Shown here: piece by piece, positions 2 to 10,483 of the stretch
Layout of the letters: each line of letters opens with the position of its first letter
Position numbering within the stretch: position 1 is the stretch's first letter
Origin: Candidatus Pygmaiobacter gallistercoris
GTDB taxonomy: Bacteria > Bacillota > Clostridia > Oscillospirales > Ruminococcaceae
DNA length: 10,483 bases
Assembly (NCBI GenBank): GCA_019113125.1
Contig: DXIA01000155.1
Coordinates: forward strand, 1 to 10,483
Direction: 5' to 3'
Program-made: the position numbers and the translations under genes
The notes under the pieces: generated by a model
What the model saw: only the letters and a program-made list of their open reading frames with translations
Told to the model about the DNA's origin: nothing
The model's database searches: none

Positions 2-715
2 ATCGACAAGCTGTTTCTTCTGCCATTCGATTACTCGACCACCGACGGGGATCTGGTGAGTGTGGATGAGGTCAAGAGGGTCGTCGATCTGGGTGAAGGG
101 GACTTTATCGGGTTCGCGGCGGTGGACCCCAACCGCAAGGATGCGGCAGAGGTCCTCGAATACGCCTTCCGGGACCTGGGGCTTGCAGGGCTCAAACTCC
201 ACCCCGGCAAACAGCAATTTTACCCCTGTGAGGAGAGAATGTTCCCGCTGTATGAGATCTGCTTGAAATACAACAAGCCGATCATCTTCCATGCGGGGAT
301 TTCCTGGGAGCCCGGAGCGCTCGCCGATTATTGCCGTCCGATCCGGTTTGAGCCGCTGGCCGTGCGGTATCCGCAGCTGCGGTTCTGCCTTGCCCATATG
401 GGATTCCCCTGGGTAACCGAGACCGCGGCGCTCATGGCAAAATACCCGAATATCTACGCGGACACCGGGCTGATGTATTTTGATTCCGCGCAGGAATTCT
501 ACAACCATGTCTTTGACAAGCAGATGGATCATACCTGGGTGGATCGGGGCATCCGGCACCAGCTGATGTTTGGAACCAACTCCCAGCGCTGGATTCCGAG
601 CAAGATGCTGCAGGCACTGGGAAATCTGGGGCTGCGGCAGGAAACGGTGGATCTGATTACCAGCCAAAACGCGCTGGAATTTTTAGGGGAGGAGCCGGTA
701 ACGTGGATAAGCTGA
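2..715 (+). CDS. Amidohydrolase-family TIM-barrel protein, copy 1 (5' partial)
   Basis: The reading frame is open from the left edge, and its first residues (IDKLFLLPFDYST) align without gaps to residue 51 onward of the full-length paralog at 3198-4061. About 50 N-terminal residues, including the HxH metal motif, therefore lie outside the window. The GTG at 56 is internal, not the start. The product belongs to the Amidohydro_2 (ACMSD-like, COG2159) metal-dependent hydrolases. Visible landmarks are LKLHP, FHAG (strand-5 His), CLAHMGFPW (strand-6 His) and LMFGTNSQRW. In the last motif the family normally has Asp, but here it is Asn (codon 578-580). Roughly two thirds of residues match copy 2. 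The gene overlaps the following YjbQ gene by 13 bases, which suggests coupled translation and a shared task. The substrate is unknown; hydrolysis of a lactone or amide derived from the imported compound is only a guess. The family call is secure, the function is not. Confidence 0.88.
   Translation: MDKLFLLPFDYSTTDGDLVSVDEVKRVVDLGEGDFIGFAAVDPNRKDAAEVLEYAFRDLGLAGLKLHPGKQQFYPCEERMFPLYEICLKYNKPIIFHAGISWEPGALADYCRPIRFEPLAVRYPQLRFCLAHMGFPWVTETAALMAKYPNIYADTGLMYFDSAQEFYNHVFDKQMDHTWVDRGIRHQLMFGTNSQRWIPSKMLQALGNLGLRQETVDLITSQNALEFLGEEPVTWIS
686..694 (+). promoter_or_regulatory. Ribosome binding site of YjbQ copy 1, inside the amidohydrolase gene
   Basis: GGGGAGGAG lies 8 bases before the GTG at 703. 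It is encoded by the conserved FLGEE tail of amidohydrolase copy 1. It supports the GTG start; the next in-frame Met is residue 62, inside the conserved core. Confidence 0.75.
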
Positions 716-1131
716 GTGAGTTCGTCATACCCACAACCAAGCAGACCGAGTACATCAACATCACCGAAAAGGTCGCACAGCTGGTTCGGGAATCCGGGAT
801 CCGGGACGGCGTGGCATTTGTCATTACCGCGCATACCACCTCCGGCATCACGGTAAACGAGTGCCTCGAGTGCCTTCAGAGCGATATGGAGGTGCTCATG
901 AAGGACCTTGTCCCGGAGGACCGTCCCTACGCTCACGCCCGAATGCTGCACTCTTATGGTACAACCGCCGGAAATGCACCCGGACATCTGCGCGGCATGC
1001 TGACAAACAACCATGCGGTGTTTCCGGTCCGTGACGGGGAACTGGTGAAGGGGCATGCTGCTGAGGTCTTTTTTGCGGAGTACGACGGGCCGCAGGACAG
1101 AAAGGTTTATGTACAGGTCATGGGCGATTGA
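703..1131 (+). CDS. YjbQ/UPF0047 family protein, copy 1
   Basis: A 142-residue protein starting at GTG 703, overlapping the amidohydrolase end by 13 bases. The family is recognised from AHTTSGITVNE (residues 43-53), the stretch GNAPGHLRGML (90-100), a PVRDGELVKG turn, and AEYDGPQDRKV near the C terminus. YjbQ proteins are small trimeric enzymes often annotated as 'secondary thiamine-phosphate synthase' because E. coli YjbQ has weak activity of that kind; the physiological role is unsettled. This protein departs from the family: the usual GTWQ motif reads GHAA (117-120), the usual DPxV after the NE pair is missing, and about nine extra residues (around ARMLHSYGTT) precede GNAPGH. By hand count 103 of 142 residues match copy 2 with no gaps. 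No thiamine gene is nearby. Coupling to the amidohydrolase and the sugar-uptake setting point to a catabolic role, which is inference. Confidence 0.9.
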   Translation: MDKLSEFVIPTTKQTEYINITEKVAQLVRESGIRDGVAFVITAHTTSGITVNECLECLQSDMEVLMKDLVPEDRPYAHARMLHSYGTTAGNAPGHLRGMLTNNHAVFPVRDGELVKGHAAEVFFAEYDGPQDRKVYVQVMGD

Positions 1132-1155
1132 TAACATAACAAGGATGGAATGAAA

Positions 1156-2319
1156 ATGTCTGAAAAAAAGATTTCATTTTCACATTTGGGCAAGCATTCA
1201 ACCTATATCGCACTGGTTGCCGTGCTGCTGATCTTCGGGGTTCTCACCGAAGGGAGAATCTTTACCCCGATGAATATCACAAACAACTTTATCCAGAATG
1301 GATATCTGTTCCTGCTCACCATCTCGCTGTTTTTCTGCATCCTGACCGGTAATACCGATCTGTCGGTCGGCTCGATCATCGGTTTGGTGGGCGCGGTGAT
1401 TGGCATTCTGTATGTCAATCTTCAGGTCCCGATGATTCTCGCAGTCTTCTGCGGTCTGTTGGTCGGGGTGCTGATCGGCGCCTTTCACGGTGTGCTGATC
1501 ACAAAGTTCGGGTTCGCCCCCTTCATTGTCACGCTGGCCGGCAACTTTGCCTACCGCGGCATCGTGCAGTATCTGCTGCAGGGCGGCACCCTGGGCCCGC
1601 TCGCACCCCAGATCAAGTCCTTCGCAAATGGCTACATCCTCAGCGATCTCCGGGTTGCCGGGATCAACCTGGTCTGCCTGCTGGTGCCGGTGCTGGTTGC
1701 GGTGATTGTGCTGATGGGAGAGATGCGGCGCCAGCGCGAGGCGGAAAAGTACGGTATGCAGAAATCCCCGGTTGCGGCGGTTGTCGCCCGAACCGTGGCA
1801 ATCACCCTGGTTGCGGCCGTGATCAGCTATTTCTGGAACGCACACAAGGGGATGCCGATCATCGTTCTGTGTCTGGTCGTGATCATCGCCATCTATAACT
1901 TTATTGCGAACAATACGGTTCTGGGACGGCATGTCTATGCCGTGGGCGGCAACTGCGGCGCGGCGGCGCTTTCCGGCGTCAATGTGAACCGGGTGATGTT
2001 CTTAGTCTTCTTCAACAGCGCCTTTGTCGCGGCGATCGCGGCCTTGGTGGTTGCCGGCCGGGTGGGCGCCACCTCCACCAATGCGGGCGACGGATACCAG
2101 ATGGACGCCATTGCAGCCTGCTACATCGGCGGGTGCTCAGGATCGGGCGGTTCGGGCTCGCTGGTCAAGGCAATTGTGGGCGCCTTTGTGGTGAGCATTC
2201 TCCTCAATGGAATGACCCTGATGGGCCTGGGATCGGATGTGCAGCAGATGGTAAAGGGTCTGGTGCTGCTGGCGGCCGTCACCTTCGACGTGTTTGCCCG
2301 GTCCCGGTCAGAGGGATAA
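1156..2319 (+). CDS. Sugar ABC transporter permease, XylH/GguB type, copy 1
   Basis: An inner-membrane permease of the BPD_transp_2 class (387 residues from ATG 1156; ATG 1150 is the alternative). I prefer 1156 because AAGGA at 1141-1145 is 10 bases away and because MSEKKISFSHLG then aligns with the start of copy 2 at 6038. About ten hydrophobic segments are visible. The family motif TGNTDLSVGS sits near residue 65. A charged loop (MRRQREAEKYG) near residue 190 and the segment LGRHVYAVGGN are typical of XylH/GguB-type permeases rather than RbsC. The C-terminal loop MDAIAACYIGGCSGSGGSG (near 316-334) is close to the conserved Gly-rich motif of this family. No ATPase is adjacent, so it probably shares the ATPase at 4503-6041, perhaps as a heterodimer with permease copy 2. 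A partner encoded upstream of the window cannot be excluded. Confidence 0.9.
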   Translation: MSEKKISFSHLGKHSTYIALVAVLLIFGVLTEGRIFTPMNITNNFIQNGYLFLLTISLFFCILTGNTDLSVGSIIGLVGAVIGILYVNLQVPMILAVFCGLLVGVLIGAFHGVLITKFGFAPFIVTLAGNFAYRGIVQYLLQGGTLGPLAPQIKSFANGYILSDLRVAGINLVCLLVPVLVAVIVLMGEMRRQREAEKYGMQKSPVAAVVARTVAITLVAAVISYFWNAHKGMPIIVLCLVVIIAIYNFIANNTVLGRHVYAVGGNCGAAALSGVNVNRVMFLVFFNSAFVAAIAALVVAGRVGATSTNAGDGYQMDAIAACYIGGCSGSGGSGSLVKAIVGAFVVSILLNGMTLMGLGSDVQQMVKGLVLLAAVTFDVFARSRSEG

Positions 2320-2336
2320 GGAGCGGTGAAGAAAAG

Positions 2337-3182
2337 ATGAAGAAACTGAGCATAGATCGCTTTGCCGCGATGAACATGGTCTATCAGCGGTACTCCTTTG
2401 AGTTCTTTCTGGACTCGCTGGACCGGCTGGGAATCAGCAATTTTGAACTGTGGACCGGCGCGCCGCATCTGAACAATCTGGTCGAGTCGCTGTCGGATGC
2501 GCAGAAGGTCCGCAGGCAGGTGGAGGACAGAAAAAAGAGGATCGTCTGTGTCACCCCCGAGCAGTGCTTATATCCGCACAACATTGCGGCGGTGGACGAC
2601 GGACTGCGGCAGTACAGCCTGGACTATTTTCTGAGCTACATCGACATGACGGCACAGCTGGGCTGCGACAAGATGCTCTGCTGTGCAGGCTGGGGAAACT
2701 ACGATGAGGATCCGGCGCTGGCCTGGGCAAGATCGGTGGACAGCCTCAAGCGGATGACCGAGCGGGCGGAGCAACGGGGGGTTACCCTGGCGTTCGAGAT
2801 CCTCTGCCCCTCCGAGAGCAATCTGGTCAACGACCTCGCATCGACCAAGCGGATGATGGACGAGATTCAGAGCCCCAACTTCATGCTCTGCATCGATACC
2901 GTGCCGATTCGGCTGTCCGGCGCGCAGGTGGAGGACTTCTTCGAGACCTTCGGCAAACGGATCTGCCACATCCATCTGACCGACGGAACGCCGACCGGCC
3001 ATCTTCCCACCGGACTGGGAGAGCACCCGATTATCCATTATCTTCGGGTGATCGAGGAGAACGACTATGCGGGGGATATCACGCTGGAGATCGGCAACCC
3101 GGCCTGGTATCAAAATCCGGAAGAGGCGACGCGCATCTCCTTTGAGACGATCAGCAACAGCCTGAATGCGCGCAACGCGTAA
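2337..3182 (+). CDS. Sugar/ketosamine epimerase, AP-endonuclease-2 TIM barrel, FrlC-like
   Basis: A cytosolic TIM-barrel isomerase/epimerase of 281 residues. The start is ATG 2337, with AAGGAG at 2318-2323 overlapping the stop of the permease gene; the spacing of 13 bases is long. Four metal ligands of the D-tagatose 3-epimerase fold can be placed: E154 (FEIL), D187 (CIDT), H213 (HIHLTD) and E251 (TLEIG). The closest match I recall is E. coli FrlC, the fructoselysine 3-epimerase. Shared segments include an ELW/EIW..PH motif, a TPE..xYP stretch (T73-P80), P-ESN (158-162), and a GxGxxP-like GLGEHPI loop. FrlC interconverts psicoselysine and fructoselysine. Here it sits 15 bases before amidohydrolase copy 2, within a sugar-import operon containing FrlB-like proteins, which strengthens but does not prove a ketosamine substrate. 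A plain ketose or sugar-phosphate 3-epimerase is the alternative. Confidence 0.85.
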   Translation: MKKLSIDRFAAMNMVYQRYSFEFFLDSLDRLGISNFELWTGAPHLNNLVESLSDAQKVRRQVEDRKKRIVCVTPEQCLYPHNIAAVDDGLRQYSLDYFLSYIDMTAQLGCDKMLCCAGWGNYDEDPALAWARSVDSLKRMTERAEQRGVTLAFEILCPSESNLVNDLASTKRMMDEIQSPNFMLCIDTVPIRLSGAQVEDFFETFGKRICHIHLTDGTPTGHLPTGLGEHPIIHYLRVIEENDYAGDITLEIGNPAWYQNPEEATRISFETISNSLNARNA

Positions 3183-3197
3183 AGGAGGAGAGAAAGA

Positions 3198-4061
3198 ATG
3201 GTGATTGACGCCCATTTTCATCCCATGTTTATCAAGGAGGTCTGCCCCACACCGGAGCTGACACAGCGGCGCAAGGAACTGATGGCCTACTACAAAACGG
3301 GCCAGATGGATCTGGAGCGGACCATCGAGATCAACAAGATCAAGGGGGTTGACCGGGCGATCCTGCTGCCCCATGACTATTCTACCAAATACGGCGACCG
3401 CATTACCAACGAGGAGGTGCGGCTGCTGGTGGACAAATCCGGCGGCGCCTTCTATGGCTTTGCCGGGATTGATCCCGATCGGGAGGATGCGCTGGAGGAA
3501 CTGGAACATGCATTTCGGGATCTCGGGCTCTCCGGCCTCAAGCTCCATCCGGCCAAGCAGCAGTTTTACCCGTCGGATGAAAAGATGTACCCCATCTATG
3601 AGCTGTGCGTCAAGTACAACAAGCCGATTACCTTCCACGCCGGCATGTCCTGGCAGCCCAATGCCCTGGCCGAATACGCGATGCCGATTCACTTTGAGCA
3701 GGTGGCAAAGGACTTTCCCCAGCTGCGGTTCTGCCTGGCACACATGGGATTTCCCTGGGTGACCGAGACTGCGGCCCTGCTTGCAAAGTATCCCAACATG
3801 TATGCGGATACCTCCGCGCTCTACTTCGATTCAGCCTACGAGTTTTACAACTATCTGTTCAACAAGGCGATGGATGTCACCTGGCTGGATCGCGGAATCC
3901 GCCATCAGGTGATGTTCGGCACAAACTTCCCCCGCTGGCAGGCAAAGCGGACCCTCAAGGCGATCCGGATGCTGGGGCTGCGGGAGGAGACTGTGGAACT
4001 GATCACAGGCAGGAATGCGCTGGAGTTTTTGGGTGAGGAGGAAGCGAGTTGGTTAAGCTGA
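3198..4061 (+). CDS. Amidohydrolase-family TIM-barrel protein, copy 2 (full length)
   Basis: A 287-residue protein of the Amidohydro_2/COG2159 group, preceded by AGGAGG at 3183-3188, 9 bases from ATG 3198. Putative metal and active-site residues, by family pattern, are H6 and H8 (DAHFHP), H147 (TFHAG), H182 (LAHMG), and position 243, where the family's Asp is replaced by Asn (MFGTNFPRW). The same replacement is present in copy 1, so it is conserved and not decay. Members of this group are usually mononuclear hydrolases, lactonases or decarboxylases, with that Asp acting as ligand and base. With Asn the protein may use a different chemistry, or bind without hydrolysing. The final bases overlap the YjbQ copy 2 gene by 13. 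Copies 1 and 2 differ mostly at synonymous or conservative sites, so the duplication is old. The substrate is unknown. Confidence 0.92.
   Translation: MVIDAHFHPMFIKEVCPTPELTQRRKELMAYYKTGQMDLERTIEINKIKGVDRAILLPHDYSTKYGDRITNEEVRLLVDKSGGAFYGFAGIDPDREDALEELEHAFRDLGLSGLKLHPAKQQFYPSDEKMYPIYELCVKYNKPITFHAGMSWQPNALAEYAMPIHFEQVAKDFPQLRFCLAHMGFPWVTETAALLAKYPNMYADTSALYFDSAYEFYNYLFNKAMDVTWLDRGIRHQVMFGTNFPRWQAKRTLKAIRMLGLREETVELITGRNALEFLGEEEASWLS
4035..4041 (+). promoter_or_regulatory. Ribosome binding site of YjbQ copy 2, inside the amidohydrolase gene
   Basis: GAGGAGG lies 7 bases before the TTG at 4049 and is encoded by the LGEEE tail of amidohydrolase copy 2. It supports the TTG start, which is at the equivalent place to the GTG start of copy 1. 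Confidence 0.75.
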
Positions 4062-4477
4062 ACAAGTTTGTACTGCAGACGATGAAGGAGACGCAGTACA
4101 TCCTGATCACCGACAGGGTCGAAAAACTGGTGGAGCAATCCGGAATTCAAAACGGCGTGGTATTTGTCATTACGGCCCATACGACCTCCGGCATCACGGT
4201 GAATGAGAGCCTGGAGTGCCTGCAGAGCGATATGGAGGTCCTGATGGATGAACTTGCCCCGGAGCTGAAACCATACAGCCATGCGCGGATGCTCCACTCC
4301 TACGGCCAGACGGCGGGAAATGCGCCGGGACATCTCAAGGCGATGCTGACAAACAACCATGCGGTGCTGCCGGTTCAAAACGGAAAAATTGTCCGGGGCC
4401 ATGCGGCCGAGATCTTCTTTGCGGAATACGATGGCCCACAGGACCGCACGGTCCTGGTCGAAGTGATGGGCGAATAA
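4049..4477 (+). CDS. YjbQ/UPF0047 family protein, copy 2
   Basis: A 142-residue paralog of the protein at 703-1131, aligning end to end without gaps. It starts at TTG 4049, inside the amidohydrolase copy 2 gene (13-base overlap). It keeps AHTTSGITVNE (43-53), HSYGQTAGNAPGH (83-95) and AEYDGPQDR (125-133). It shares the unusual features of copy 1: GHAA in place of GTWQ, no DPxV after NE, and the extra residues before GNAPGH. Most differences between the copies fall in the first 40 residues and in surface-like charged positions, while the putative pocket is nearly invariant, so both copies probably do the same chemistry. The conventional 'thiamine-phosphate synthase' name is unlikely to describe its job in this sugar-uptake operon. 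The gene for the transporter ATPase follows after 25 bases. Confidence 0.9.
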   Translation: MVKLNKFVLQTMKETQYILITDRVEKLVEQSGIQNGVVFVITAHTTSGITVNESLECLQSDMEVLMDELAPELKPYSHARMLHSYGQTAGNAPGHLKAMLTNNHAVLPVQNGKIVRGHAAEIFFAEYDGPQDRTVLVEVMGE

Positions 4478-4502
4478 TTACACGGTGGAACGAGGTGTTC
4501 AA

Positions 4503-6041
4503 ATGTCTTCCGATTACATACTGGAGACCAAAAATATCACCAAACGATTTTGGAATGTGGTGGCGCTCAACAACGTCAACTTCAAGGTGCGCAGGGGGGA
4601 GATCCATGTCCTGTGCGGTGAGAACGGTGCGGGAAAGTCGACCCTGATGAACATCATCAGCGGCGTCTACCACTATGGAAATTACGAGGGGGATTTTTAC
4701 TACAACGGCGAGCTGTGCCAGTTCCGCTCGGTCAACGACAGTGTCGAGAAGGGGATCTCCATCATCCATCAGCATCTGGCGCTGATTCCGCTTCTGACGA
4801 TAGCGGAAAACATCTTCTTGGGCAATGAGCAGTCGAAGAACGGCGTCATCGACTGGCAGTCGACCAAGCAGCGGGCCAAGGAGCTGATGGACCGGGTCGG
4901 GCTGCACGAGAGCCCGGATACCAAGATCAAGGACATCGGCGTGGGCAAGCGGCAGCTGGTCGAGATCTGCAAGGCCATCTCCAAAAATGTCAAGCTGCTG
5001 ATCCTGGATGAGCCGACCGCAGCCCTCAATGAGGAGGAGAGCGACAAGCTGCTGCAGATGCTCAAAACATTCCAGAAGGATGGAATAACCTCAATCCTGA
5101 TCACCCACAAGCTCAACGAGGTTACCAAGGTCTGCGATACCATCACCATTCTGCGGGATGGCTCGACCATCGAGAGTCTGGACCGGGAGAAGGACGATGT
5201 ATCGCAGGGCAGAATCATCAAGTCGATGGTCGGACGGGAGCTGACCAATCTGTATCCGCCCCGTGAGAGCAAGATCGGCGAGGTCACATTCGAGCTGCGG
5301 GACTGGAATGTCTACGACCCGCACTTCTCGGATATCGAGGTGCTGCACAAGGTCAACATGAACGCCAGGAAAGGCGAGGTGCTGGGAATTGCCGGCCTGA
5401 TGGGCGCCGGGCGCACCGAGCTCGCGATGAGCGTCTTCGGCAAGAGCTACGGACAGAAGATCACCGGCGAGGTCCTCATCAACGGGCAGAAGGTCAGGAT
5501 GAACAACACCGCACAGGCGATCGGTCACGGTCTTGCCTACGTCTCGGAGGACCGGCATGAGTATGGCCTGATCAGCGGCATGTCGGTCAAGGACAACATC
5601 TCGCTGGCCAGCCTGAAGGACTTTGTCAAAAACGGCGCGCTCGACAGCGACAAGGAGATCATCGTCGCAAAGGAGTACAAGGAAAAGATGCGGATCAAAT
5701 GCCGGGATGTGGACCAGAAGGTGGACGCGCTGTCGGGCGGCAACCAGCAGAAGGTCATCCTGAGCCGCTGGATCCTGAAAAATGCCGATATCCTGATTCT
5801 CGACGAGCCGACCCGCGGCATCGATGTCGGATCCAAATACGAGATCTATGAAATCATCAACCAGCTCGCGGAAGAGGGAAAGTGCATTATCTTCATCTCC
5901 TCCGACATGCCCGAGCTGATCGGCATGTGCGACCGGGTCTATGTGCTCAATGAGGGCCGGGTGGTCAAGGAGCTCAACAGGCCCGACATCAGTCAGGAAA
6001 ATATCATGGCTGCAATTATGGAAACAGGGGGAGCAAAATGA
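4503..6041 (+). CDS. Sugar ABC transporter ATP-binding protein (two cassettes), GguA/XylG type
   Basis: A cytoplasmic ATPase of 512 residues powering sugar import, with two fused nucleotide-binding domains as in RbsA, XylG and GguA. In domain 1, Walker A is GENGAGKST (39-47), the Q-loop is Q90, the signature is IGVGKRQ (145-151; the usual form is LSVGQQQ), Walker B is LLILDEPT (165-172), and an ITHK switch follows. In domain 2, the P-loop is degenerate, GLMGAGRTE (298-306), as is normal for this family; the signature is LSGGNQQ (410-416) and Walker B runs to DEPTRG (434-439). I chose ATG 4503 because GAGGTG (4492-4497) sits 5 bases upstream; GTG 4485 would add six residues and has no better site. 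The stop overlaps the next permease start (ATGA), a sign of coupled translation. It is the only transporter ATPase in the window. Confidence 0.95.
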   Translation: MSSDYILETKNITKRFWNVVALNNVNFKVRRGEIHVLCGENGAGKSTLMNIISGVYHYGNYEGDFYYNGELCQFRSVNDSVEKGISIIHQHLALIPLLTIAENIFLGNEQSKNGVIDWQSTKQRAKELMDRVGLHESPDTKIKDIGVGKRQLVEICKAISKNVKLLILDEPTAALNEEESDKLLQMLKTFQKDGITSILITHKLNEVTKVCDTITILRDGSTIESLDREKDDVSQGRIIKSMVGRELTNLYPPRESKIGEVTFELRDWNVYDPHFSDIEVLHKVNMNARKGEVLGIAGLMGAGRTELAMSVFGKSYGQKITGEVLINGQKVRMNNTAQAIGHGLAYVSEDRHEYGLISGMSVKDNISLASLKDFVKNGALDSDKEIIVAKEYKEKMRIKCRDVDQKVDALSGGNQQKVILSRWILKNADILILDEPTRGIDVGSKYEIYEIINQLAEEGKCIIFISSDMPELIGMCDRVYVLNEGRVVKELNRPDISQENIMAAIMETGGAK

Positions 6042-7180
6042 AAAACAAGAGCATATCACTTTCCAAATACGGACTGGTGATCTCCCTGGTTGTGGTGGTC
6101 CTGTTCTTTGGCATTATTACCGGGGGCAACATGTTCGTGCCGATGAACGTCACCAATATCTTCATGCAGAACAGCTACCTGATCATTCTGTCGGTCGGCA
6201 TGTATTTCTGCCTCTCCACCGGCAGCGTGGATCTGTCCTGTGGCTCGGTGGTGGCGGTCGCGGGTGCGATTTTGGGGTTCATGACCGTGACCAACAGCTA
6301 TCCGCTCTGGCTGACCATCCTCTGTATCATCCTCTGCGGCGGGCTCTTGGGACTGTTTCAGGGTTCTCTGATCGCCTATTTCGGCGTGCCGGCCTTCATC
6401 GCGACACTGGGCGGCGAGCTGGTGTTCCGGGGCGCGAACACGGTAATTCTGGACAGCCAGACGCTTGGACCCTTCGATCCCGCGGTGCAGTATTTCGCAG
6501 CGGGCTATATCATGCGGGATTTCAAGCTGTTCGGAATGAACGGGTTCTGCCTGATCGTGCTGGCAGTCGGGATCGTGGCGATCATCTTCAATGAAGTTTC
6601 CACCCGCAGAAAGCGGCAGAAGTACGGATTCACGGTGCCGGCGGTCTACGCCAGCGTGCTGAAGGTCATCGCCATCATCTTCGCACTGTCGTTTGTCATG
6701 ATCAGCATGGCGATGTATAACGGCATGCCGTTTATCCTGCTGGTGCTGATTGCGATCATTTTGGTCTACTCTTTTATCGCGAACAAGACGGCATTCGGCC
6801 GGCATGTGTTTGCGGTGGGGGCGAATCGCTCGGCGGCAAGATTGTCCGGCGTCAAGGACAAGGCCACCATCCTGATCGTCTTTGTCAACGCAGGACTTCT
6901 GGCATCGGTTGCGGGCATCGCGGTTGCGGGACGGCTGAACGCCGCAACCTCCCTCGCGGGAACCGGATATGAGCTGGAAGCGATCTCCTCGGTGCTGATT
7001 GCCGGCGGCGCCCGTGCCGGCATCATGGGAACTCTGGTCGGAGCCACCATCATGGCAGTGCTCAACAACGGCATGTCGGTGCTGGGCCTCGGCGCAGATG
7101 TTCAGAAGATTGTAAAGGGCATTGTGTTATTGTTGGCTGTTGGGTTTGACATATATTCCAAATCAAAAGCGGAGAATTAA
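6038..7180 (+). CDS. Sugar ABC transporter permease, XylH/GguB type, copy 2
   Basis: A 380-residue inner-membrane permease starting at ATG 6038, overlapping the ATPase stop by 4 bases. It is a clear paralog of the permease at 1156-2319: FVPMNVTNIFMQNSYL near residue 33 matches its equivalent there, as do TGSVDLSCGS (61-70), the charged loop STRRKRQKYG (188-197) and FGRHVFAVGANRSAARLSG (253-271). The C-terminal Gly-rich loop, which in this family usually reads like IGGTSLAGGVGS, is altered to IAGGARAGIMGT (about 321-332). Permease copy 1 keeps a near-standard version. This raises the possibility that the two permeases form an asymmetric pair over the single ATPase. The binding-protein gene follows 14 bases later. 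Confidence 0.93.
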   Translation: MKNKSISLSKYGLVISLVVVVLFFGIITGGNMFVPMNVTNIFMQNSYLIILSVGMYFCLSTGSVDLSCGSVVAVAGAILGFMTVTNSYPLWLTILCIILCGGLLGLFQGSLIAYFGVPAFIATLGGELVFRGANTVILDSQTLGPFDPAVQYFAAGYIMRDFKLFGMNGFCLIVLAVGIVAIIFNEVSTRRKRQKYGFTVPAVYASVLKVIAIIFALSFVMISMAMYNGMPFILLVLIAIILVYSFIANKTAFGRHVFAVGANRSAARLSGVKDKATILIVFVNAGLLASVAGIAVAGRLNAATSLAGTGYELEAISSVLIAGGARAGIMGTLVGATIMAVLNNGMSVLGLGADVQKIVKGIVLLLAVGFDIYSKSKAEN

Positions 7181-7194: not shown

Positions 7195-8361
7195 ATGTTG
7201 AAGAAAGTATTGGCAGTTCTGCTCAGCCTTACCTGTCTTGCGGCGCTCTTCGCCGGCTGCTCCGGCGGCGGGTCTTCTGCGGCCGGCGGCTCATCCGCAG
7301 CCGGTGGGTCTTCCGCCGGCGGGGAAAAGACCGGAGAGGGAAAAACCATCGGCATCGCGCTCACCTCCAAGGCGCTCGCGCGCACCAATCTGGACTCGAT
7401 CTACCTCACCCAGTACCTTGAGGAGATGGGATATGAGGTGATGATCCAGTACTCCGAAAACGATGTCGCGGTTCAGAATTCCCAGATCGAGACGATGGTC
7501 TCCTCCGGCATCGACGGCCTGATCGTCTCTCCCTCTGATGGTACCGCCCTCGCCGGTGCGATGGAACTGTGCCATGAGAATGACGTCAAGGTCTGTGACT
7601 ATGACGCGCTGATCATGGACAGCGAATATATCGAGTACTACGCCACCGACAACCTGTTCGAGGTAGGCCGCTGCCAGGGACAGTACATCGTCGATGCGCT
7701 GGATCTCGAGAATGAAACGGGACCCTTTAACCTGGAGATCTTCGCCGGCTCGATGACCGACAACAACGCCACCTACTTCTTCGACGGCGCAATGTCTGCA
7801 CTGCAGCCCTACATCGATAACGGGAAACTGGTGGTCCAGAGCGGTCAGGTGACCTTTGCGGAGTGCTCGACCGAGAAGTGGAACGCCGCCAACGCGCAGA
7901 CCCGTGCCGACACGATTCTCAGCACCTATTATTCCGACAAGCGGGTGGATGCCTGCCTGACCCAGAACGACGATCTGGCGACCGGCGTGATCTCGGCGCT
8001 CAAGAGCGTCGGCTACGGCACCGCCGACAAGCCGCTGCCGGTCACCACCGGTCAGGACTGCAACGTCTCGGCGATCAAGTCGATCATCGCCGGCGAGCAG
8101 ACCTCCACCGTCTTTAAGGATATCAAGGAACTGGCCCGCGCTGCAAGCAATATCATCGACTGCATGGTGAACGGCCGTGAGGTTGTGATCCCCGAGGACA
8201 AGCTGGGCTACTATAACAACAACGTCGTGGATGTTCCCACCTATCAGGTCAGCCCGATGGTTCTGGACAAGAGCAACTGGTATGAGCTGATCATCGAGTC
8301 GGGTTTCTACACCGCCGAGGATCTGGGCATGACCGAGGAAGAGGCAAAGGCGGCTGCCTGA
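7195..8361 (+). CDS. Sugar-binding lipoprotein of the ABC importer, ChvE/XylF-like
   Basis: A 388-residue extracellular lipoprotein. Residues 1-21 form a signal peptide (MLKK, then a hydrophobic core) ending in LFAG-C22, the lipid-anchored Cys. A low-complexity Gly/Ser/Ala linker follows to about residue 49. The mature domain is Peripla_BP_4-like and resembles Agrobacterium ChvE. Shared segments are YYAT.N (148-153), GPFNLEIFAGS (176-186), DNNATYFFDGAM (189-200), LQPYIDNGKLVV, W229, TGQD (285-288), SIIAGEQ.STVFKD and a C-terminal DKSNW. Two sugar-contact positions conserved in XylF and ChvE differ: the Trp of the RW motif is Thr64 (LART), and the Arg of YDR is Ala138 (YDALI). The ligand may therefore not be a plain aldopentose or aldohexose. 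It is placed with its ATPase and permease, giving a complete importer. The residue comparison rests on remembered family sequences. Confidence 0.94.
   Translation: MLKKVLAVLLSLTCLAALFAGCSGGGSSAAGGSSAAGGSSAGGEKTGEGKTIGIALTSKALARTNLDSIYLTQYLEEMGYEVMIQYSENDVAVQNSQIETMVSSGIDGLIVSPSDGTALAGAMELCHENDVKVCDYDALIMDSEYIEYYATDNLFEVGRCQGQYIVDALDLENETGPFNLEIFAGSMTDNNATYFFDGAMSALQPYIDNGKLVVQSGQVTFAECSTEKWNAANAQTRADTILSTYYSDKRVDACLTQNDDLATGVISALKSVGYGTADKPLPVTTGQDCNVSAIKSIIAGEQTSTVFKDIKELARAASNIIDCMVNGREVVIPEDKLGYYNNNVVDVPTYQVSPMVLDKSNWYELIIESGFYTAEDLGMTEEEAKAAA
7273..7323 (+). repeat. Low-complexity Gly/Ser/Ala linker repeat in the lipoprotein
   Basis: Residues 27-43 are built from repeated SSAAGG units with slightly different codons. 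This is a flexible tether between the lipid-anchored Cys22 and the sugar-binding domain, common in Clostridia binding proteins. No other function is suggested. Confidence 0.8.
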
Positions 8362-8491: not shown

Positions 8492-9499
8492 ATGGCACAC
8501 GCGGTAAATTTGACAAATGCGGATGCGATTGCCGCCTGCGTTCAGGACGTCATGGATAAAATGCGCGGGCGGGGCGGACTCAAAGAGGTCTACGCTGTGG
8601 CATGCGGGGGATCGCTGAGCGGCTGCTATCCGCTTTACTATCTCCTGCGCAGCGAGGCAAAACAGCTGCGCAGCGACTGCATCAGCGCGAACGAGTTTGT
8701 CTGGAGCACCCCGAAGGCGGTGGGAGCAAACAGCCTTGTGGTCTGCATGTCCAGAAGCGGCACCACGCCGGAAACGGTCGCTGCTGCACACAAGGCCCGT
8801 GCGCTGGGAGCGCTTGTGGTCACCCTCTCGATCAATGAGGCGGATCCGCTGCAGGAGCAGGGGGACTACAATTTTGTCTGGGCCGCAAGCAATGAGAAGG
8901 ATTCCTATGAGTACAGCAACTCGGCGCTGGTCCTGCGGCTGGGCTTTGAACTGCTGAAAGCGGTGGAGGGATATGCGAAGTTTGATGCGGCGGCCGGGGC
9001 ATTTGAAAAAATCGACCGGATCATCCGCTCGGCGATCGCGCAGGCGCAGGAGAAGGCGGATCGCTTTGCCCAGGAGCATCAGGACGACTTCGCGATCTAC
9101 ACGCTGGGCAGCGGTCCGGTTTACAATATCGCCTATTCCACCTGCATCTGCCACCTGATGGAGATGGAGTGGATCAACTCAAGCTCCTTCCATACCGGCG
9201 AGTTTTTCCACGGCCCGTTTGAGATCACCGACAAAAAGGTTCCGTTTTTGCTGTTTATGAGTTCGGGACGCACCCGGGCTCTGGACGAGCGGGCGAAAGA
9301 CTTCCTCGCCCGGTACACCGAGTGTCTCGAGGTGCTGGACGCCGAAGACTATGGCGCACTGGAACTGGACGAAGGGGTGCGGGAGTTCTTTGACAACCTG
9401 ATCCTCGCCGCCGTGGGACGGGTTTACACCGAGACCCTCGCGGTTTATAAGCAGCATCCCTTTGCGTACCGCAAGTACATGTTTAAGGTAGAATACTGA
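8492..9499 (+). CDS. SIS-domain protein resembling FrlB/FraB deglycases, copy 1
   Basis: A cytosolic 335-residue protein with two SIS (sugar isomerase) domains, about residues 29-160 and 190-320. Sugar-phosphate-binding motifs are CGGSLSG (38-44) and SRSGTTPET (87-95) in the first domain, and TLGSGP (204-209) in the second. The segment from E224 (LMEMEW) to H240 (GEFFHGPFEI) has the same 16-residue spacing as the Glu/His pair reported as catalytic in Salmonella FraB (E214/H230), and matches E. coli FrlB. The C terminus (YKQHP...KVEY) also resembles FrlB's YKDHN...LVEY. FrlB and FraB split 6-phosphorylated ketosamines into glucose-6-phosphate and the free amine or amino acid. The start at ATG 8492 is set by AAGGAG at 8479-8484. 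Other SIS enzymes, such as AgaS-type deaminases or GlmS-like isomerases, are alternatives, but FrlB-type is my best call. A matching kinase is not visible. Confidence 0.85.
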   Translation: MAHAVNLTNADAIAACVQDVMDKMRGRGGLKEVYAVACGGSLSGCYPLYYLLRSEAKQLRSDCISANEFVWSTPKAVGANSLVVCMSRSGTTPETVAAAHKARALGALVVTLSINEADPLQEQGDYNFVWAASNEKDSYEYSNSALVLRLGFELLKAVEGYAKFDAAAGAFEKIDRIIRSAIAQAQEKADRFAQEHQDDFAIYTLGSGPVYNIAYSTCICHLMEMEWINSSSFHTGEFFHGPFEITDKKVPFLLFMSSGRTRALDERAKDFLARYTECLEVLDAEDYGALELDEGVREFFDNLILAAVGRVYTETLAVYKQHPFAYRKYMFKVEY

Positions 9500-9521
9500 T
9501 TGATGAGAAAGGAAAAAAACT

Positions 9522-10483
9522 ATGGCTATTCAGTACACCACCGGTGAACAGGTCAGACAGGCCGTGGAGGAGATTTGCGGAAAACTGGAGGCAAAGGGTG
9601 GTCTGCAGAATGTGTTTTGTGTGGCCTGTGGGGGTTCTCTGTCCAACCTGTACCCGTTGTATTACCTTCTGCGCAGCGAGTCGAAAAAGCTCTGGGCGCA
9701 GGAGATCAACGCCAATGAATTTGTGCATGCCGCACCGGCCGGCGCAGATGAGCGCGCGTTGGTGGTCTGCATGTCGATGACCGGCACGACGCCGGAGACG
9801 GTTGCTGCCGCCAAAAAGGCAAAGGAGCTGGGGGCCACCGTCATCACCATTGCCGGAACCGAAGACAGCCCGATGAGCGCATACGGGGATTACCGCTGGA
9901 TCTTTTCCAATGAGACTGCCGGCACACAGGTGGACTATGCCGCCTGCAACATGGCGCTTGCACTGCGGCTGGGCTTTGAGCTGCTGCGGGTGTATGAGGG
10001 GTATGCCCATTACGACAAGGCGATGGCGGGCTTTTCGGTGCTCGACCGCTCGGTACATCACGCGCGGGCGATGGTGCAAAAACGGGCGGTTCGATTTGGC
10101 GAAGAACACAAGGATGACCCGGTGATCTACACCGTCGGCAGCGGCCCGAGCTACAATACGGCTTACGCGTTTTCGATCTGCATCCTGCTGGAGATGGAGT
10201 GGATCAACTCCAGCTGTATTCACGCCGGCGAGATGTTCCACGGTCCGTTTGAGATCGCGGATTTCAACACACCGTTTGTGATCTTTATGAGCGAGGGGAA
10301 GAACCGTTATCTGGACGAGCGCGCGCTGCGTTTCCTGCAGCGGTACGCCGGAAGGGTGTCGATCATCGATGCCAAAGAGCTGGGGGTCAGCATCATCGCG
10401 CCGGAGGTGGAAGAGTACTTCAGCGCGATCTACAACTGGGTAGTCGCGTATGAATACGCCAAGGAGCTGGCAATTGCAAAACG
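9522..10483 (+). CDS. SIS-domain protein resembling FrlB/FraB deglycases, copy 2 (3' partial)
   Basis: The frame runs from ATG 9522 (AAAGGA at 9508-9513, 8 bases upstream) off the right edge: 320 full codons, probably lacking only about 15 residues. It aligns without gaps to the preceding SIS protein, so motifs have identical numbers: CGGSLSN (37-43 region), SMTGTTPET (about 85-93), TVGSGP (204-209), and the putative catalytic pair E224 (LLEMEW) and H240 (GEMFHGPFEI). The first-domain loop differs (SMTGTT versus SRSGTT), as does the stretch before the His (SSCIHAGEM versus SSSFHTGEF), so specificity may differ while chemistry is kept. A tandem deglycase pair with different substrates is known from the Salmonella gfr operon (GfrE and GfrF); a similar division of labour is possible here. 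The gap to the previous gene is 22 bases. Confidence 0.85.
   Translation, partial: MAIQYTTGEQVRQAVEEICGKLEAKGGLQNVFCVACGGSLSNLYPLYYLLRSESKKLWAQEINANEFVHAAPAGADERALVVCMSMTGTTPETVAAAKKAKELGATVITIAGTEDSPMSAYGDYRWIFSNETAGTQVDYAACNMALALRLGFELLRVYEGYAHYDKAMAGFSVLDRSVHHARAMVQKRAVRFGEEHKDDPVIYTVGSGPSYNTAYAFSICILLEMEWINSSCIHAGEMFHGPFEIADFNTPFVIFMSEGKNRYLDERALRFLQRYAGRVSIIDAKELGVSIIAPEVEEYFSAIYNWVVAYEYAKELAIAK

Follow-up and report, generated by a model that had tools for sequence, protein, structure and literature searches.

What do a YjbQ protein and an amidohydrolase-fold protein do together when their genes lie side by side, twice over, among genes for the import of a sugar-like compound? The question is raised by contig DXIA01000155.1 of Candidatus Pygmaiobacter gallistercoris (G000:C110), one whole contig of 10,483 bp that was analysed at its full length and is called the window below; its source genome comprises 1.6 Mb in 198 contigs and is 91.6% complete. 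In both pairs a gene for an amidohydrolase-2 fold protein (AH) is followed by one for a UPF0047 protein (YjbQ), and current annotation names them 'amidohydrolase' and 'secondary thiamine-phosphate synthase', respectively. It would seem that the pair is a hitherto undescribed accessory in the catabolism of Amadori compounds (ketosamines). The explanation that we favour, with a probability of roughly 40%, is that AH and its YjbQ form one unit of a kinase-dependent catabolism of sugar-amine conjugates (Amadori compounds or close relatives), in which they would act as an isomerase or epimerase.

Conservation of the AH-YjbQ pair

AH loci were collected with an AH profile alone (A1, 28 sequences), and the best 80 of 433 confirmed matches were used, with one genome per species. 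In 79 of these 80 loci the next gene downstream, on the same strand, is one for YjbQ. In the one exception (L046) the contig stops 138 nucleotides (nt) past AH, and in L087, counted among the 79, the YjbQ start enters a masked stretch. Pairs occur in Bacillota, Chloroflexota, Actinomycetota (Olsenella, Olegusella) and Spirochaetota (Sphaerochaeta); Paenibacillus jilunlii and Clostridium manihotivorum are among the species that have one. No YjbQ match was found near 24 more distant amidohydrolases of the relatives (57-122 bits with the same profile; 2.9-3.8 kb examined for each), nor was a paired-type AH found at 40 other UPF0047 loci (2.6-4.8 kb each). The first 20 of these control loci were mostly top-scoring matches, to which 20 lower-scoring ones were added; one of them, L157, has a distant amidohydrolase (77 bits) on the opposite strand.

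Applied to 391 sampled genomes of the class, the AH profile (E 1e-50) and a profile of paired YjbQ (E 1e-38) single out the same five, among them the genome of the window, and the two genes are adjacent in each. UPF0047 genes of any kind are present in 166 of the 391 class genomes and in 10 of 14 control genomes ranging from archaea to E. coli, while the window's genome has no further UPF0047 gene besides YjbQ1 and YjbQ2. In the loci examined, which span four phyla, AH and YjbQ are hardly ever found apart. With 79 of 80 loci and the same five of 391 genomes, the pair as a local peculiarity was rejected; it is kept together far outside this genome, one of the points on which the initial annotation had let its idea of a functional pair depend.

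Paired YjbQ as a distinct subfamily

Both window YjbQ proteins exceed the curated cut-offs of the family (PF01894, 106 and 109 bits against 27; TIGR00149, 106 and 105 against 67.75). The AlphaFold model of YjbQ2, with a predicted local distance difference test score (pLDDT) of 93.8 and its lowest block (74) at residues 81-90, matches YjbQ structures, the best in the PDB being 1vph with a template modelling (TM) score of 0.91. Asn91, His95 and Glu126 are likewise widely common to paired and other UPF0047 proteins. Nevertheless, paired YjbQ differs from the rest of the family in several respects besides its AH neighbour. Cys57 is present in all 87 paired rows, and Ala119, Leu82, Tyr85 and Gly86 in 86 each, whereas none of 42 other UPF0047 rows has Cys57 (mostly Pro or Gly) or Ala119 (Trp in 40, Phe in 2). 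Columns 81-85 are filled in the paired rows and empty in all 42 others, some of which fill 86-89; the loop insert is thus 5 to 9 residues long, according to the protein with which it is compared. His44, Glu53 and Arg133 hardly vary among the paired rows and do vary among the others. Ten key positions are intact in 84 of the 87 rows, the exceptions being L004 and L057, whose rows end early, and L049.

In trees, which use few columns and in which E. coli YjbQ is a long branch, the paired rows fall together on one side of a single branch, with E. coli YjbQ and 20 others on the opposite side (100/100); with more controls, 35 of the 87 paired rows are separated from 42 others (100/96). Judged by these sequence features, the paired proteins form a YjbQ subfamily of their own, marked by an invariant Cys and an altered pocket and loop. 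The surmise that a YjbQ subfamily is at work here is thus supported by Cys57, Ala119, the loop insert and the separate branch.

A second UPF0047 group in the class (L152-L171) mostly has Asp53, Gly57 and Lys133, and E. coli YjbQ may be closer to these than to the first group. Judging from this group, UPF0047 comprises more than one kind of protein.

The only YjbQ activity known to us is a weak thiamine phosphate synthase side reaction. If paired YjbQ were a thiamine phosphate synthase as annotated, its neighbourhood would be coincidental. Both window copies do pass TIGR00149, and ThiE was not found in the 91.6%-complete genome. Yet ThiC was not found in it either; besides YjbQ, no thiamine family exceeds its cut-off among 30 proteins scanned with NCBIfam (for the ATPase, among the best 25 of 196 families); and the usual pocket with Trp119 and no insert is absent from paired YjbQ, 86 of 87 rows having Ala instead of Trp together with the inserted loop. 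A thiamine role is therefore considered highly improbable. The role outside thiamine synthesis that had initially been proposed for YjbQ stands in so far as neither ThiC nor ThiE was found, which does not favour a thiamine role. As neither enzyme was found in this incomplete genome, the organism may need external thiamine.

The amidohydrolase partner

AH belongs to the amidohydrolase-2 family (PF04909: BB4693, LigJ hydratase, ACMSD, LigW decarboxylase), with 134 bits for AH2 and 91 for AH1 against a cut-off of 26.4. The AH2 model (pLDDT 93.6) is an ACMSD/LigJ-type TIM barrel, for which the best-ranked structure entries are 3irs (BB4693), LigJ 6dxs and 6dxq, and 3cjp. The metal histidines of the family, namely those of the HxH motif and of strands 5 and 6, are all present in AH2, and AH1 has the two that fall in its surviving part.

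The strand-8 Asp is catalytic in the amidohydrolase superfamily. In a profile alignment AH residue 243 corresponds to this Asp in a LigW2-type chain (4inf), but in AH it is Asn in 72 of 87 rows, both window copies among them, Asp in 11, Gly in 3 and Ser in 1. The Pro-Arg that follows it (Pro in 86 of 87 rows, Arg in 87) also sets AH apart from the family. The strand-8 Asp is missing in 3irs too. In four of the 87 rows at least one metal histidine is lost and the pair is retained (L007 and L116, from G059 and G337; L086; L097), and L008 has Gly at 243 with its histidines intact. Because AH loses the Asp or histidines while the YjbQ positions stay constant, the essential chemistry is placed in YjbQ, which is probably the catalytic partner, on an asymmetry that comes from few lineages.

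Alternatively, AH could be a genuine hydrolase or lactonase whose substrates are ketosamines in modified form (lactones, lactams, acylated or peptide-linked), with YjbQ as its partner or as the next enzyme. The fold and the closest structures, which belong to the ACMSD/LigJ/LigW branch of metal enzymes, agree with this, as do the four histidines, which 82 of 87 rows retain, and an Amidohydro_3 gene near the pair in L040. The Asn in 72 of 87 rows, and the four rows in which histidines are lost while the pair persists, argue against ordinary hydrolysis, and the hydrolase explanation appears unlikely.

Gene neighbourhood and proposed ketosamine catabolism

Neighbours of the pair were sought in the 80 loci by tblastn (at least 45 bits) with the E. 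coli Frl proteins and six further queries: two window proteins and four proteins of L034, L040, L097 and L108, the latter four of which hit themselves. A PfkB kinase, in many cases similar to FrlD, was found in 77 loci, and in 72 of these it is encoded on the same strand and no further than about 3.5 kb away; the three loci without one (L037, L048, L107) are on contigs of 4.6, 13.3 and 9.5 kb. FrlC-like barrels occur in 66 loci, SIS genes in 52 and FrlA in 38, and FrlB at 55-60% identity to E. coli in eight. Some loci hold the pair within a complete frl set. That of Caproiciproducens (L040) is an example: FrlB, FrlC and FrlD exceed their NCBIfam cut-offs (471 against 430, 477 against 305 and 383 against 247 bits), and they are accompanied by an amino-acid permease (FrlA, 56% identical to E. 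coli) and a GntR-UTRA gene. Kinase, AH and YjbQ stand alone in L088, where the flanking genes are on the other strand; L096 has the same three genes without other genes of the module, followed on the same strand by an unassigned frame of 380 amino acids (aa).

Transport varies among loci, with FrlA, a ChvE/GguAB-like importer or an amino-acid ABC system; the top model for the amino-acid ABC binding protein of L098 is a lysine/arginine/ornithine one, below its cut-off. By importer type the window groups with L033-L036. Its genes, as far as described, are all on the + strand:

2..715, +: AH1, amidohydrolase-2 fold protein, copy 1; truncated by the contig end, with roughly 50 residues missing from the N terminus (PF04909, 91 bits)
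703..1131, +: YjbQ1, paired-type UPF0047 protein, GTG start at 703 (PF01894, 106 bits; TIGR00149, 106, cut-off 67.75)
1150..2319, +: GguB-like sugar permease 1 (NF040906, 377 bits, below the cut-off of 450)
2337..3182, +: FrlC-like xylose-isomerase-type TIM barrel, putative epimerase (PF01261; best NCBIfam NF007360, fructoselysine 3-epimerase, 114 bits, below the cut-off of 305)
3198..4061, +: AH2, amidohydrolase-2 fold protein, copy 2, with Asn243 at the strand-8 Asp position (PF04909, 134 bits; AlphaFold pLDDT 93.6; profile alignment to LigW2 chains)
4049..4477, +: YjbQ2, paired-type UPF0047 protein, TTG start at 4049, with Cys57, Ala119 and a loop insert within 81-89 (PF01894, 109 bits; TIGR00149, 105; AlphaFold pLDDT 93.8; 1vph, TM 0.91)
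4485..6041, +: GguA-like ABC ATPase, alternative ATG at 4503 (NF040905, 785 bits, slightly below the cut-off of 810)
6038..7180, +: sugar permease 2 (PF02653, 115 bits), 42% identical to permease 1
7195..8361, +: ChvE-like sugar-binding protein (NF040907, 374 bits, below the cut-off of 460)
8492..9499, +: SIS protein 1, FrlB-like, putative ketosamine-phosphate deglycase (NF008481, 94 bits, below the cut-off of 430)
9522..10483, +: SIS protein 2, FrlB-like, 3' end lost at the contig end (NF008481, 87 bits, below the cut-off of 430)

That the neighbours import and process a sugar-like compound, as initially annotated, agrees with the importer, the FrlC-like barrel and the two SIS proteins of the window, and the frl-type operons of the relatives would sharpen this to kinase-dependent catabolism of Amadori compounds. 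No FrlD-type kinase is found in the 10.5-kb window itself, the 5' end of which cuts AH1. In L033, which shares the duplicated order of the window, a PfkB kinase frame (319-1257) lies immediately upstream of AH1. The best match to this kinase in the window's genome is 27% identical, and the lack of a close relative elsewhere in the genome is expected if the kinase sits in the gap beyond the contig end. By analogy with L033, a kinase gene is predicted immediately beyond the upstream edge of the contig. Promoter and terminator scans gave no excess over shuffles.

The closest known system is the frlABCDR operon of E. coli for fructoselysine and psicoselysine. Genes of the FrlD, FrlC, FrlA, FrlR and sometimes FrlB type surround relatives of the pair, whereas the E. 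coli operon has neither AH nor YjbQ; the window differs further in its ChvE/GguAB-like importer and in FrlC-like and SIS proteins that fall below the family cut-offs. By curated cut-offs, the window falls outside the E. coli-type frl family. E. coli profiles are a poor yardstick in this class, since E. coli-type FrlC (E 1e-60) was found in only one of the 391 class genomes. The gfr operons for fructoselysine and glucoselysine in Salmonella and Faecalibacterium also use SIS deglycases for sugar-amine conjugates; they take up their substrates by a phosphotransferase system, in contrast to the importer and kinase here, and their descriptions, in the accessible text, name no AH or YjbQ (PMC12136445, PMC5270733). 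We read the neighbourhood as a module of kinase-dependent sugar-amine (Amadori) catabolism that would serve varied substrates.

Several further features of these loci were observed. The two tandem SIS genes of the window (8492-10483) are 48% identical, which suggests two substrates or a two-subunit deglycase. In L098 (11279-14687), and similarly in L049 and L082, all from Paenibacillaceae, about four tandem FrlC-like TIM barrels come right after AH-YjbQ, as if several stereocentres were handled. Genes for FGGY kinases and for BtpA/SgcQ-family proteins turn up repeatedly in the vicinity of the pair, with similarity clusters in 25 and 23 of the 80 loci (for example L078, L089, L056, L038 and L108), and a HAD phosphatase is sometimes present. 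Long frames divergent from the module are found in L040 (3145-4740, - strand) and L108 (5950-7659, - strand); that of L040 encodes the Amidohydro_3 protein, which possibly acts on the amine part.

Proposed role of the pair

Under the favoured explanation, AH and YjbQ are probably a hetero-oligomeric enzyme. In the window, the substrate would enter through the ChvE/GguAB-like importer. YjbQ would carry the essential chemistry, and AH would be its partner, either binding the substrate or contributing chemistry other than ordinary hydrolysis. With less certainty, the unit would act on the kinase product or its precursor as an isomerase or epimerase, converting ketosamines of the wrong stereochemistry, non-fructose or other, to the form cleaved by the SIS deglycase, comparable to FrlC at C3. 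The guess of an isomerase or epimerase is made because kinase and FrlC-like genes are near, because SIS genes coexist with the pair in 52 of 80 loci and because AH looks non-hydrolytic.

Several observations weigh against this explanation. All four metal histidines survive in 82 of 87 rows, which makes it quite plausible that AH binds metal and is itself catalytic. The mirror-tree analysis does not single out the pair: over the 50 loci with all four proteins the correlation for AH-YjbQ reaches 0.90, no better than AH-kinase at 0.89, with AH-TIM and kinase-TIM at 0.885, YjbQ-TIM at 0.79 and YjbQ-kinase at 0.77 (AH-YjbQ over 85 rows, 0.87). One genome of the class sample (G217) has FrlC over its cut-off and is not among the AH-positive genomes; because it and the E. 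coli frl operon do without the pair, the pair is not needed for ordinary fructoselysine. There is also less need for another epimerase, as 66 of 80 loci already encode an FrlC-type barrel. Finally, the SIS proteins of the window (94 and 87 against 430 bits) and its FrlC-like protein (114 against 305) miss the NCBIfam cut-offs, and the substrate in the window may be something other than an Amadori compound.

The main rival is that AH-YjbQ is a second, SIS-independent ketosamine-phosphate deglycase, converting the kinase product to sugar phosphate and amine, the step done by FrlB in E. coli. The kinase is the most constant neighbour, L088 and L096 have kinase-AH-YjbQ without other module genes, and an SIS gene is absent from the examined flank in 28 of the 80 loci, some of them on short contigs. 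Sixteen genomes among those 28, all of unknown completeness, were searched, and two of them (L097, L042) show a GlmS-sized SIS protein only; in the other 14 an FrlB-sized SIS protein is encoded elsewhere. As an SIS gene is also present in the remaining 52 loci, eight of them with the close FrlB, a second deglycase seems unlikely. In its furthest-reaching form, a YjbQ subfamily with a new catalytic Cys and a repurposed amidohydrolase-fold subunit would make up a second, SIS-independent class of enzymes that break or remodel phosphorylated Amadori compounds, in a three-gene pathway of kinase, AH and YjbQ; this is a speculative and rather doubtful proposal.

The pair might instead repair or detoxify damaged intermediates, such as breakdown products of ketosamine 6-phosphates, outside the main flux. 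Its accessory distribution, with an E. coli frl operon lacking it, is consistent with such a role, and fructose-asparagine inhibits a Salmonella fraB mutant, for which a pathway intermediate has been proposed as the cause, according to the accessible part of the report (PMC4941530). Nevertheless, the pair is nearly invariant in the module and stands with the kinase alone in L088 and L096, a better fit to a main step, and a repair role is regarded as improbable.

Duplication and gene overlap in the window

The presence of two AH-YjbQ pairs in the window is borne out by the gene calls, the identities and nonsynonymous divergence (dN) well below synonymous divergence (dS). AH1 and AH2 (its residues 51-287) are 66% identical over 237 aa without gaps (dN 0.25; dS 2.4, near saturation), and YjbQ1 and YjbQ2 73% over 142 aa (dN 0.19, dS 1.1). 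YjbQ trees group the two window copies (supports 100/85 and 99/85), though L033 shares the duplicated order, and either of two histories is therefore possible: a shared duplication followed by gene conversion, or separate duplications may have occurred. The AH tree (31 of 87 rows) does not resolve the relation between the copies of the window and those of L033.

Both YjbQ starts (GTG at 703, TTG at 4049) lie 13 nt ahead of the end of the AH gene. The overlap had been described as identical in the two copies; it is equal in length, but its sequence agrees at 11 of 13 bases only. In a survey of 90 pairs (two from the window and 88 from other loci), an overlap of any length occurs in 31 and one of 13 nt in 14, while the genes are separated by 0-20 nt in 54 and by more than 20 nt in five. 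YjbQ starts with ATG in 76 pairs, GTG in 8 and TTG in 6; in L033 the two starts are ATG and TTG. The non-ATG start thus holds for both window copies but for only 14 of the 90 pairs across the family, and strict conservation of start codon and overlap, from which the initial annotation had argued that the two proteins must be made together, does not hold; strict conservation of the coding overlap was rejected on the same count of 14 pairs. Close coupling of AH and YjbQ is common, and the 13-nt geometry and the non-ATG start are features of part of the family.

Significance

Amadori compounds arise in heated food and are degraded by gut bacteria, according to the accessible text of PMC9749803. 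The frl pathway for them is known, and its two-protein AH-YjbQ component looks undescribed: no description of AH-YjbQ in Amadori catabolism was found in the accessible literature, a search that left most subscription papers outside. The current annotation names hide a seemingly undescribed step. To our knowledge, no physiological function is known for any YjbQ protein; if the three-gene pathway of kinase, AH and YjbQ is true, it would give one to a YjbQ protein, and it would be the first. Since this YjbQ subfamily has a fixed partner, a clear sequence signature and a kinase that is almost always nearby, the question of its role becomes one of its substrate.

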